Made by a program: the position numbers and the translations under genes. From Candidatus Pelagibacter communis (GTDB taxonomy: Bacteria > Pseudomonadota > Alphaproteobacteria > Pelagibacterales > Pelagibacteraceae): a stretch of 64,000 bases of DNA. Under the pieces are notes generated by a model. The model saw nothing but the letters and a program-made list of their open reading frames with translations. It was not told where the DNA came from and searched no databases. This document shows, in pieces, positions 14,691-57,387 of this stretch; positions within the stretch are counted from its first letter, which is position 1; every line of letters starts with the position of its first letter. Location of the stretch: the NCBI RefSeq assembly GCF_001180185.1, contig NZ_CVSS01000043.1, positions 1-64,000 of the forward strand, read 5' to 3'.

Positions 14691-14734
14691 ATCAAAACGA
14701 GAACATTTGCATTAAAATTTTAAGATTAATTTTG

Positions 14735-15088
14735 CCAGATAAACTATAAGCCGGGTTCTGTCATTTAAACTTATCATTTGTCTAGACTTAAGATCACTCT
14801 TAAGCTCAAGCAGCTAACCCTGATGACGAGCCAAGGATGGCTTTTAGCTTTTAGACAATGTCATCTCTACTTAGCCTTGCTCCTAGTGGGGTTTTCCAGC
14901 GTTCATTGTTACCAATAGAACCGGTGCGCTCTTACCACACCTTTTCACCCTTGCCATGTTATGGCGGTATATTTTCTGTGGCACTATCCCTAGGGTTTCC
15001 CCCGCCAGGTATTACCTGGCACTGTATCCTTGCGGAGCCCGGACTTTCCTCTTTAAATTAATAAAGCGATAAGTCATTTATCTGGCAG
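14735..15088 (-). ncRNA. rnpB: RNase P RNA (bacterial class A)
   Basis: This is the catalytic RNA that trims the 5' ends of tRNA precursors. On the minus strand the 5' part contains GAGGAAAGTCCGGGCTCC, the nearly universal P4-adjacent sequence, at about 15051-15034. The 3' part contains ACAGAACCCGGCTTATAG at about 14764-14747. The outer ends GCCAGATAAA and TTTATCTGGC (15086-15077 and 14745-14736) pair as helix P1, which fixes the limits to within a few bases. Total length of about 354 nt is normal. It fills most of the only long non-protein stretch of the window. Ends are inferred from P1 pairing. Confidence 0.96.
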
Positions 15089-17331: not shown

Positions 17332-17408
17332 TGGTGGGCCCGCCAGGACTCGAACCTGGGACCAATACATTATGAGTGTACTGCTCTAACCAACTGAGCT
17401 ACAGGCCC
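17332..17408 (-). tRNA. tRNA with CAT anticodon, probably tRNA-Ile2
   Basis: A 77-nt cloverleaf with encoded CCA: 7-bp acceptor stem GGGCCTG/CGGGCCC, normal D loop with GG, anticodon loop CTCATAA (anticodon CAT), and standard T arm with TTCGAGT. The acceptor GGGCCTG and the ACTCATAAT...TTGGTC stretch look more like the tRNA-Ile2 whose C34 is converted to lysidine to read AUA than elongator tRNA-Met, but base identity alone does not settle it. It is not the initiator: the first acceptor pair is a normal G-C. It lies convergent to mlaC. Confidence 0.95.
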
Positions 17409-18795: not shown

Positions 18796-18870
18796 TGGTG
18801 GGCCGTGTTGGTTACGCTCCAACTACCCCTGCAATGTCAATGCAGTACTCTACTATTGAGCTAACGGCCC
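18796..18870 (-). tRNA. tRNA-Val (GAC) with atypical D and T loops
   Basis: A 75-nt cloverleaf with encoded CCA: acceptor GGGCCGT/ACGGCCC, D stem GCTC/GAGT, anticodon stem CTGCA/TGCAG with loop TTGACAT (anticodon GAC, valine), and T stem GTTGG/CCAAC. All stems are fully paired. The D loop is AATAGTA, with a single G instead of the G18-G19 pair, and the T loop is AGCGTAA instead of the usual TTCRANN. The 5' end lies 5 bases after the rpoD stop on the same strand. It may be a working but divergent tRNA, or a tRNA-like element; valine identity is inferred from the anticodon. Confidence 0.82.
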
Positions 18871-18875
18871 TTTAA

Positions 18876-20699
18876 TTAACTCTCTAGAAAACTTTTTAAT
18901 TGTTTTGATCTGCTAGGGTGCTTTAATTTCCTTAGAGCTTTAGCTTCAATTTGTCTAATTCTTTCCCTGGTTACAGAAAATTGTAATCCAACTTCTTCCA
19001 ATGTATGATCTGTATTCATTCCAACTCCGAATCTCATTCTTAAAACTCTTTCTTCTCTTGGAGTTAAAGTAGATAATATTTTTGTAGTAGCTTCTCCAAG
19101 ATTTGACTTAATTGCCTGTTCTAATGGAGCTAGAGCTTTTGTGTCCTCAATAAAATCTCCAAGACTACTGTCTTCCTCATCCCCAACTGGTTTTTCAAGT
19201 GAAACTGGTTCTTTTGAAATTTTTAATACTTTTCTAACTTTGTCTAATGGCATTCTCAGTTTTTTTGCTAATTCCTCTGGTGTAGCCTCTCTACCATATT
19301 CACTGAGAATTAATCTTTGAGTTCTCACAATTTTATTTATTGTTTCAATCATGTGAACAGGTATTCTAATTGTTCTAGCTTGATCAGCAATTGATCTAGT
19401 TATTGCTTGTCTAATCCACCAGGTTGCGTATGTAGAGAATTTATAACCTCTTCTGTATTCAAATTTATCAACAGCTTTCATCAAACCTATATTTCCTTCT
19501 TGAATTAAATCTAAAAACTGTAGACCTCTGTTAGTATATTTTTTAGCAATTGAAATAACTAATCTTAGATTAGCTTCGACCATTTCTTTTTTTGCAATTC
19601 TTGACTCTTTTTCTCCTTTTTGAACTCTACTAACTAATTTTTTAAAATCAGTTACAGACATTCCAAGCTTGAGACTTATTTCAATTAATCTCTCTCTTAT
19701 ATTTTTAAATTCATCTTTATTTTTTGAGAAAAACTGCTTCCAAGTCACATTTGTATCAAGAAATTTTTTTAAGTGAGGATTAATTTCGTTTCCAATATAA
19801 AACTTGATAAATTCATTTCTAGAAATTTTATGATCCATAGCAAGTCTTAAGAGGTTTCCCTCTAAAGAAATAATTTTTTTATTCTCAGTGTAATGTTTTT
19901 GAACAAGCTCCTCTAAAACTGATGGAGATAATTGCAAAGATTTTATATTTTCTAAAATCTGATTAACTAATCTTTCATAACTCTTTTCTTTTGTTGAAGA
20001 AAAAGTTTTTGAATTTAACACACAATCTAATTTTTCTTTTTGATATTTGATGAGCTTATTATATTCTTTTGTTAAATTATAAACGGTTTTAAGAACCTTT
20101 GGCTTAATTTCTGTTTCCATAGCCGCGAGCGTAGGATTAAAGTCATCATCTTCTTCAGATGAGCTATCTTCTTTTTCTGTTTCACCTGCATTTTTTTGTT
20201 TAGCACTTGGACCTGTGCTTTCATCTTCCATATAATTAGTATCGATATCGATAATTTCTCTTACTAAAATTTCATCTTTTTGTAATTTTTCATTCCAATC
20301 AAAAAATTGTTGAGCAGTAATCGGACTTTGCGATAAAGCAATTAACATTACATCTTTTCCTGCTTCTATTCTCTTAGCAATTGCTATCTCACCTTCTCTA
20401 GATAGAAGCTCAACCCCTCCCATTTCTCTTAGATACATTCTTATCGGATCATCACTTTTATCTATAGTCTTACCTTCCTCTTTAGAAGATGATTCTTTTT
20501 TTCTTAAAACTTTGTAATCAGATTTTTTTTCTACAAGAATTACGTTTTCATTCAAAATATGAATAAAAGCCTGTGATAAATTTTCATTTGATAAATTTCT
20601 TTTTCCTAATGATTTGCTTAATTCCTCGTAAGTAATAAAACCCCGATGAGTTCCTCGACCCATTAGTCTAGCAAATGATTTAGTTATAATTCTTTCCAC
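18876..20699 (-). CDS. rpoD: Primary RNA polymerase sigma factor (sigma-70)
   Basis: RpoD directs RNA polymerase to housekeeping promoters. The 607-residue protein has a reduced region 1.1, region 1.2 at [21 protein letters not shown] near residue 85, a long acidic non-conserved region (about 150-340), and region 2 with [29 protein letters not shown] near 375. [15 protein letters not shown] near 421 handles -10 recognition and melting. Region 4 near the end has [13 protein letters not shown] and the [17 protein letters not shown] helix for the -35 box. It follows dnaG by 69 bases. tRNA-Val begins 5 bases after its stop. Confidence 0.98.
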
Positions 20700-56223: not shown

Positions 56224-56274
56224 TCGTTCATTAAATTGCTAACACTAATTATGTAAATTTAATTCAATCTGAAG

Positions 56275-56303
56275 TTGACCCAAGAATCCATTTGGAGTCT
56301 AAT
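56275..56303 (+). promoter_or_regulatory. Likely ccrM promoter containing two GANTC sites
   Basis: TTGACC (56275-56280), a 17-base spacer and TCTAAT (56298-56303) form a plausible sigma-70 promoter for the DNA methylase. GAATC at 56284-56288 lies in the spacer and GAGTC at 56295-56299 overlaps the first bases of the -10. Both are GANTC, the target of the CcrM family. Transcription would begin only a few bases before the ATG at 56317, so the mRNA would be nearly leaderless. Self-control by methylation is inferred. Confidence 0.5.
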
Positions 56304-56316
56304 ATTTTTTTATAAA

Positions 56317-57387
56317 ATGAAATTAGATTTTAAAAATAAAATCATTAATGGAGACAGCCTCAAGGAATTAAAAAAAATTCCACGTGAAACTTTTGACCTA
56401 ATTTTTGCTGACCCACCATACAATCTTCAATTGAAAAATAAATTAACAAGACCAGATCTGACTAACGTAGATGGTGTCAATGACCAATGGGATCAATTTG
56501 AAAATTTTAAAAAATATGATGAGTTCACTTATGAATGGTTAATTGAGTGTAAAAGAATTTTAAAAAAAAATGGAGCAATTTGGGTAATTGGAAGTTATCA
56601 CAATATTTTTAGAGTTGGGACAATCATTCAGAATTTAGGTTTTTGGATTTTGAATGATGTAATTTGGAACAAAAAAAACCCAATGCCAAATTTTAGAGGA
56701 ACAAGATTTACCAATGCACATGAGACTCTCATCTGGGCTTCAAAATCTGAAAAATCAAAATATACATTTAATTATCAATCTTTAAAATGTTTGAATGATG
56801 ATTTGCAAATGAGATCTAATTGGGAGTTACCAATTTGCAATGGATTAGAAAGACTTAAAAAAGATGGTAAAAAAATACACTCTACTCAGAAACCAGAAGC
56901 TTTAATTCACAGAATTTTATTAGCCACCTCTAACAAAAAAGATCTAGTTTTAGATCCTTTTTTGGGATCAGGAACTACAGCTACAGTTGCAAAAAAGTTA
57001 GGAAGAAATTATTATGGTATTGAAAAAGAAAAAGTTTATTTCAAAGCAGCTGAAAAAAGAATAAAAAATACTAAACCTATTGAAGATGATTATTTAGATA
57101 CCTTGGAAAATAATAGGTCTAAACCAAGAATACCTTTTGGTTCATTAGTGGAATTAGGAATTATCAAGCCTGGCACGACAATATTTGATAATAAAAAGAG
57201 AATAAGTGCTAGAATAATGGCTGACGGAAGCATTAAACATGCTCAAACAGAAGGTTCGATTCATAAAGTTGCGGCAACAATCTTAGGTACAGAGAGCTGC
57301 AATGGTTGGACTTATTGGCATTTTAATTTTAACGGTACTGTTGTTCCAATTGATCATCTAAGAAAAAGATTAATTAGCAAAAGTTAA
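56317..57387 (+). CDS. ccrM: DNA adenine methyltransferase, CcrM type (GANTC)
   Basis: CcrM methylates adenine in GANTC and in alphaproteobacteria ties gene expression to the cell cycle. From the ATG at 56317 it has 356 residues: the catalytic DPPYN near 34, the target-recognition middle, the SAM-binding DPFLGSGTT near 217, and the CcrM-specific C-terminal RAMA domain (about 270-350, with LVELGIIKPGTTI). No partner restriction enzyme is present, so it is a solitary methylase. A longer frame from 56275 would translate the promoter region and lacks family support. Its stop interlocks with the monooxygenase stop (TTAA). Confidence 0.96.
   Translation: MKLDFKNKIINGDSLKELKKIPRETFDLIFADPPYNLQLKNKLTRPDLTNVDGVNDQWDQFENFKKYDEFTYEWLIECKRILKKNGAIWVIGSYHNIFRVGTIIQNLGFWILNDVIWNKKNPMPNFRGTRFTNAHETLIWASKSEKSKYTFNYQSLKCLNDDLQMRSNWELPICNGLERLKKDGKKIHSTQKPEALIHRILLATSNKKDLVLDPFLGSGTTATVAKKLGRNYYGIEKEKVYFKAAEKRIKNTKPIEDDYLDTLENNRSKPRIPFGSLVELGIIKPGTTIFDNKKRISARIMADGSIKHAQTEGSIHKVAATILGTESCNGWTYWHFNFNGTVVPIDHLRKRLISKS

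Follow-up and report, generated by a model that had tools for sequence, protein, structure and literature searches.

A two-state, co-varying elbow in tRNA-Val(GAC), tRNA-Phe and tRNA-His genes of SAR11 bacteria

The tRNA-Val(GAC) gene at positions 18796 to 18870 on the minus strand of the window, i.e. the whole stretch of 64,000 nucleotides from Candidatus Pelagibacter communis that was analysed, carries A18 and G55 instead of G18 and T55. It probably encodes an ordinary decoding tRNA, whose elbow is built from an alternative contact set with A18-G55 in place of G18-U55. The observation is real and broader than first noted for this single gene: the elbow co-varies between two states, does so in three isotypes and concerns sole-copy genes in the congener G003. 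Judged from the sequences, the elbow has been rewired and not given up. The L shape of a tRNA is held by the contacts 18-55 and 54-58, which are treated as invariant, and Psi55 is described as universally conserved in passages of two reviews (PMC7912444, PMC4810234). The presence of A18/G55 in three isotypes suggests an alternative way to build the bend of a tRNA, and the perfect, recurrent natural covariation suggests that the two contacts are replaceable as units.

Structure of the tRNA-Val(GAC) gene

ARAGORN called a tRNA-Val(gac) at exactly 18796-18870(-), and the Rfam family RF00005 matched the gene with 53.6 bits at a gathering score of 29. The cloverleaf was the minimum-energy fold with -28.6 kcal/mol (z -3.29; none of 200 shuffles was as good) and also the centroid fold. 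The acceptor stem GGGCCGT/ACGGCCC is followed by A73 and the encoded CCA, the D arm reads GCTC-AATAGTA-GAGT, the anticodon arm CTGCA-TTGACAT-TGCAG, the variable loop GGGTA and the T arm GTTGG-AGCGTAA-CCAAC. The molecule is a class I elongator cloverleaf with arms of 7/4/5/5 bp, in which every stem position is paired with G10-U25 as the one wobble; the first-pass annotation was right about the fully paired stems and the encoded CCA. The anticodon GAC (18836 to 18838, minus strand) reads GTT and GTC, which account for 528 of the 978 Val codons in 60 long open reading frames of the window.

The peculiarity resides in two loops. The D loop AATAGTA (18851 to 18857, minus strand) is read as A14 A15 T16 A18 (18854) G19 (18853) T20 A21. 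The T loop AGCGTAA (18812 to 18818, minus strand), numbered from the sequence and the covariation, is A54 (18818) G55 (18817) C56 (18816) G57 T58 (18814) A59 A60. Thus the single G of the D loop and the lack of T54, T55 and A58 had been described correctly. Because the D loop has seven bases and C56 is present, the lone G is G19 and the pair G19-C56 is intact. Relative to the consensus the changes are G to A at 18, T to G at 55 and T/A to A/T at 54/58, so that of the canonical elbow contacts G19 with C56 is kept, while A18 and G55 stand for G18 with U/Psi55 and A54/T58 for T54 with A58. The Levitt pair 15-48 is A/A. In an alignment of 15 A18/G55 tRNAs the bases A18, G19, G55 and C56 were invariant.

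Upstream, the stop codon of rpoD (18876 to 20699, minus strand; identified as an open reading frame and by adjacency in relatives) lies 5 bases from the tRNA gene, and the two are probably co-transcribed. Downstream follows tRNA-Met(cat) at 17332 to 17408 of the minus strand (ARAGORN), which neighbours the Val gene in many relatives.

Conservation and distribution in the order

BLAST with the Val gene matched 48 of 147 genomes of the family, some of the weak matches being tRNA-Lys, and in 22 of the 147 (own genome counted) all 72 bases were identical, which upholds the earlier view that the gene is maintained. That view had leaned on the encoded CCA. The other tRNA genes of the window genome and of G003 encode CCA too, so it is no special sign of upkeep and sequence identity is the better one. 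An identical Val gene was located downstream of rpoD in 13 named Pelagibacteraceae records, whose rpoD shares up to 95% identity with that of the window. Sequencing error and decay are ruled out by identity over many genomes, single-contig ones included, and over the 13 named records.

The gene has neither the broken stems nor the non-conserved sequence of a decayed pseudogene, in contrast to a copy in G384. This 30-contig assembly (L171 and L183) contains a decayed Val copy of the A18/G55 type (L171) with mismatched stems and T56 beside an intact canonical Val(GAC), which suggests that a Val copy degenerates when it is spare, provided that the assembly does not combine two organisms.

In a pattern search for the A18/G55 Val gene, 232 of the 397 order genomes matched, all in the genera g1 (227, by subtraction), g12 (3) and g4 (2). 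Two more genera with the A18/G55 form were found beyond the pattern search, g3 (G016, G096) and g10 (G010). In 30 more g1 genomes, including the 97% complete G131, Val(GAC) was not found by the order-wide patterns or by further search; G216 had a 3' fragment only. Such 3'-terminal fragments of tRNA-Val(GAC), seen in G051 (L048, around 5001) and G216 (L146, around 1500), are presumably remnants from integrating elements; PMC7542561 reports a prophage residing in a SAR11 tRNA-Val. BLAST of the Val flank against phages was uninformative and returned matches to the rpoD part only, in two Enterococcus phage records.

Both elbow states at the Val locus

Val(GAC) with G18/T55 was read in 12 g1 genomes (G105, G109, G259, G275, G300, G337, G340, G364, G372, G390, G443, G457). 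At 10 loci this canonical gene follows rpoD in the same orientation, and at 8 of them the distance to the last rpoD codon in the alignment is no more than 21 nt. Of the A18/G55 rows linked to rpoD, 43 of 45 (with a few repeat fetches) lie within 25 nt of that codon, and 18 further rows representing 16 genes had no rpoD end within the fetched piece. Relatives with canonical loops at this locus had been named beforehand as the finding that would expose an error or decay in one genome. Such relatives do exist; yet what they reveal is a two-state polymorphism within one genus, and neither error nor decay.

The window gene and that of G340 (L169) differ only at 18, 54, 55, 58, 59, 60 and the pair 6:67, and the Val genes L030 and L116 differ only at 18, in the T loop and at the pair 51:63. 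Both states in the same gene at the same locus constitute a ready natural experiment. The Val gene of G286 (L165) with the loops ATTAGTA/TGCAATC is A18/G55 yet T54/A58.

On a quick rpoD tree with many weak forks (51 loci, 41 A18/G55 and 10 G18/T55; L194 was dropped as it has no Val gene) the Val state switched eight times, starred branches making five of these switches unavoidable, and positions 18 and 55 moved together every time. The independent-pairs sign test on this tree gave five supported pairs, all concordant, with p = 0.0625, which is not significant alone. The states were hardly clustered, as 89 of 500 shuffles scored as low. Thus exchange of genes has likely contributed.

Coupling of positions 18 and 55 across isotypes

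The order-wide set comprised the ARAGORN tRNAs in the fetched loci plus three tRNA-His added by place, together 143 distinct sequences with one truncated tRNA-Met left out. Of these, 115 were G18/T55 and 28 were A18/G55; mixed states, i.e. A18/T55 or G18/G55, were absent from the 143. The 28 belong to Val(GAC) (16), Phe(GAA) (7) and His(GTG) (5). Mixed forms could escape ARAGORN, but there was none in G003, where each Rfam hit was read. Mixed states were also sought in the 53 genomes that an order-wide D-arm pattern matched and the A18/G55 pattern did not, and none was found. Forty of these are f2 genomes (G18 in the displayed part of each; the T loop was read for 32), nine are g1 genomes with G18/T55 (G105, G109, G275, G337, G340, G364, G372, G390, G443) and two are g4 genomes with G18/T55 (G120, G135); the others were G384 with its decayed and canonical copies and G461 with a chance match outside a tRNA.

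Mutual information was calculated for 125 of the 143 sequences, all class I, after 17 with a variable loop other than 4-5 nt and one truncated tRNA-His had been dropped. The normalised value was 1.0 for 18-55 and for 54-58, both in the 92 Val, Phe and His sequences and in the 125. Positions 19 and 56 were G-C in 125/125. Base 20 was T in 25 of 28 A18 tRNAs and in 93 of 97 G18 class I tRNAs and so did not co-vary with 55. Other columns reached 1.0 as well, e.g. 9, 15 and 47 in His (20 sequences), where two backbones dominate the set, and 26-44 in Val. Because single isotypes contain such additional fully coupled columns, the comparison over several isotypes matters. The joint change of D and T loop that had been suspected in one gene thus holds as a perfect 18-55 coupling in 143 tRNAs, and the alignment of relatives that had been proposed as a check shows covariation of 18-55 and of 54-58.

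Two Phe backbones carry A18/G55, AGGAGTA/TGCGAAT and AGTAGTA/TGCGATT, each with a canonical counterpart (for the second in G302, L341 only). Among tRNA-His there are at least three A18/G55 types with the loops AATAGCA or AATAGTA/AGCGTAA, AATAGTAA/TGCGATT and AGTTAGTTA/TGCAACT, the last in g9; the canonical His loop types are AATGGTTA/TTCGATC and AGTTGGTTA/TTCGAAT. T54/A58 is kept together with A18/G55 in the Val gene of G286, in the Phe tRNAs and in two of the His types. Thus 18-55 and 54-58 are separate units.

BLAST with the His gene found its own type only: among 52 genomes there were 4 clear hits, and the other matches were pieces of 14-20 bases; canonical His genes were read at some of these loci and at Phe loci. 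BLAST with the Phe gene matched in 50 of 66 genomes. The spacer between Phe and His (35 loci, after 9 had been dropped for spacer length in addition to loci with identical spacers) gave a quick tree with many weak forks and a long-branch warning. On it the Phe state switched four times (three forced) and the His state three times. One of the Phe switches depends on G390, where a divergent tRNA-Phe (L275, 841-915) stands as a replacement at the usual position of the Phe gene in the Phe-His locus.

A tRNA finder can miss genes of this kind. The tRNA-His of the window genome (G000:C49:23889-23959; L036, L268) has the loops AATAGCA/AGCGTAA and matched Rfam, while ARAGORN made no call. The tRNA-Thr(GGT) of the same genome (L035, G000:C49:19000-19250) has the T loop GTCAGTA, i.e. 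G54/G58, with G18/T55; it is canonical in G003.

Gene content and use in translation

Gene counts were taken from the single-contig G003; the window genome is 76.7% complete. All 33 tRNA hits of G003 were read and correspond to 32 genes and one 5' fragment of tRNA-Met (G003:C1:838387-838444, L433). Phe, His, Val(GAC) and Val(TAC) are each represented by a single gene in this genome, and all of these but Val(TAC) are A18/G55. Thus the sole Val(GAC), Phe and His genes are without a redundant counterpart that could meet the decoding need. Counting tRNA-Val genes had been recommended, and the count yields no second Val(GAC) in G003. That Val(GAC) by itself is essential is not strictly proven, because Val(TAC) may read GTT and GTC. 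As G003 has no other Phe or His gene, the gene content implies that synthetases must charge its A18/G55 tRNAs and that the ribosome must accept them, and charging and ribosome binding of the tRNA-Val of the window are presumably normal.

These data bear on the suggestion that the gene specifies a specialised tRNA. Staphylococci have non-proteinogenic tRNA-Gly; according to passages of PMC4052509, three of five isoacceptors carry UU or CU instead of GG, and the tRNA-Val resembles this case in that its G18G19 motif is lost. A non-translational function of the kind fulfilled by these cell-wall tRNAs, which lack G18G19 to escape EF-Tu, is nevertheless very unlikely. The staphylococcal type is an extra isoacceptor beside a translational copy, and G003 has no such pair; the same form occurs in the sole Phe and His genes, which are indispensable for translation, and the loops change in a fixed, coupled manner that is not erosion.

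TruB and pseudouridine 55

TruB was searched for with TIGR00431 in 68 genomes of the order; the controls matched in 14/14 genomes, in 10 of them over the cut-off. The enzyme was found in 17 of the 68: g12 5/5, g5 3/3, g9 2/2, g7 1/1 and f2 6/8, the two f2 misses being 79% and 74% complete. TIGR00431 had no match in the 26 genomes of g1, the 13 of g4 and the 4 of g2 (43/43 without), nor in the three of g3 and the single genomes of g10, g6 and g8; completeness is 62-86% for the genomes of g3, g6 and g8. The TruB-negative genera may have a diverged TruB or use a different enzyme.

A18/G55 tRNAs occur in the TruB-less genera g1, g2, g3, g4 and g10, and despite TruB in g12 (Val of G040, G023 and G048) and g9 (His of G009). 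TruB loss as the sole cause was rejected, since g12 and g9 keep TruB yet have A18/G55 tRNAs. Loss of TruB may favour the switch to A18/G55 without explaining every case. We tentatively consider the possibility that A18-G55 is a second, self-sufficient elbow state that replaces G18-Psi55 and needs no pseudouridine, that SAR11 bacteria, whose main genus is TruB-less, toggle the two states as a unit, and that A18-G55 is favoured as compensation for the missing modification. Whether elbow sequence is linked to loss of the pseudouridine-55 enzyme can be tested here in a bacterial group that ranks among the most abundant in the sea.

Alternative explanations

TruB loss could also have acted in another way: in the absence of pseudouridine 55, selection on the elbow would be weak and the loops would drift as in animal mitochondria. 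The uniform lack of a TruB match in g1, g4 and g2 is in line with such neutral erosion. Drift would, however, yield mixed states, of which the 143 tRNAs contain none, and would hardly leave 19-56 constant in 125 sequences; moreover A18/G55 is also present where TruB is. We therefore regard neutral erosion as improbable. Somewhat the same holds for the idea that recombination or horizontal transfer has spread two old types of allele, in which case the coupling would merely reflect linkage in a short gene. Replacement of a whole 75-bp gene by recombination would indeed shift 18 and 55 jointly without any need for pairing. The states are scattered on the rpoD tree, SAR11 bacteria recombine readily according to a section of PMC7542561, and Val gene fragments of the integrating-element kind exist. 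But the coupling recurs in three isotypes and in tRNAs of unlike backbone, such as Phe with GAGCC or GTACC anticodon stems and His with GTG or GCTC D stems, and the D loop and T arm differ too among the A18/G55 types. This is hardly one allele, and allele spread as the whole explanation is unlikely.

The position of the gene had raised the question of a tRNA-like element in the rpoD transcript, where an RNase P cut sets the end of the rpoD mRNA. The tRNA begins 5 nt past the rpoD stop, the tight spacing recurs in nearly all linked A18/G55 rows, and a cut at the 5' end of the tRNA would also trim the rpoD mRNA. Any tRNA located there would presumably be cut alike, though. The gene lies 3' of rpoD, canonical Val genes occupy the same place with similar spacing, and A18/G55 rows without an rpoD end exist. 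Thus the odd loops are independent of rpoD linkage instead of being tied to that locus, and an element dedicated to releasing rpoD mRNA is highly implausible.

Proposed elbow

For the preferred reading, an ordinary decoding tRNA with a rewired elbow, we propose that the outer pair G19-C56 is kept and that the inner G18-U55 is swapped for a purine-purine A18-G55 contact, which would stack on G19-C56. In the tRNA-Val of the window the intraloop U54-A58 would in addition be swapped for A54-U58. Each 18/55 state would need its partner and a lone change would be selected against, which would be the reason why 18 and 55 change only together. The states would be exchangeable, SAR11 lineages having apparently switched repeatedly in Val, His and Phe tRNAs. 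The first-pass annotation had counted at most one elbow pair as left; the perfect covariation of 18 and 55 points instead to a replacement contact next to the intact G19-C56. Covariation alone does not prove a contact. That A18 touches G55, and with what geometry, is what we infer from the pattern of bases; T20 or C20 could pair with G55 beside G19-C56 instead, but position 20 does not co-vary.

Comparison with known tRNAs

The tRNA-Val of the window shares the cloverleaf, arm lengths, U8, A14, A21, G19-C56, G53-C61, R57 and CCA with a bacterial elongator of canonical elbow (G18-Psi55, G19-C56, T54-A58) and differs by A18-G55 for G18-U55 and A54/T58 for T54/A58. Eukaryotic tRNA-Ala(AGC) has unusual tertiary pairs with R15/A48, A54/A58 and a purine at 60 (PMC7566577, in part), and the tRNA-Val resembles it in having A15/A48, A54 and A60 together. 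Unlike that tRNA it has T58, and its changed 18/55 has no counterpart in the portion of PMC7566577 consulted. Both the staphylococcal tRNA-Gly and the tRNA-Val have an altered G18G19 motif, but in SAR11 G19 stays and sole genes are affected. In tRNA-Pyl and type II mitochondrial tRNAs without G18G19/TPsiC, as outlined in excerpts of PMC7609411, the elbow consensus is changed on both sides, as in the tRNA-Val; the latter, in contrast to them, has a normal D-loop length, U8, A14 and G19-C56, with one defined pair swapped.

A literature search by titles and abstract openings found no report of A18/G55 bacterial tRNAs; earlier reports may exist, e.g. in subscription papers or supplements. The main text of PMC3937112 on SAR11 tRNA signatures has no mention of A18, U55 or tRNAVal; according to that paper, sequences of unusual secondary structure had been excluded.

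tRNAs outside the order

The class was surveyed with a model, R1, over 385 genomes, among them the own genome and four family members. Because R1 separates the two states poorly across isotypes, only the best-scoring places were read. The reads outside the order came from 25 loci, 60 fetched stretches and the tRNAs in alphaproteobacterial rpoD loci. A18/G55 was not found among the 72 distinct alphaproteobacterial tRNAs so obtained, i.e. at best-scoring places of a sampled class; 55 were G18/T55 and 17 G18/C55. All 28 distinct Val(GAC) were G18/T55. This is in line with the earlier view that such a change is unusual for a bacterium, and a restriction of the form to SAR11 is at most suggested by this sampled survey of the Alphaproteobacteria.

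The G18/C55 tRNAs are a separate observation and a further deviation from U55. They make up 17 of 33 distinct tRNA-Thr(GGT) outside the order (L348-L432, a sample picked by R1) and have the T loop TCCGATT. In the window itself, Rfam also matched the bablM sRNA family at 56251-56320 and class A RNase P RNA at 14731-15085.
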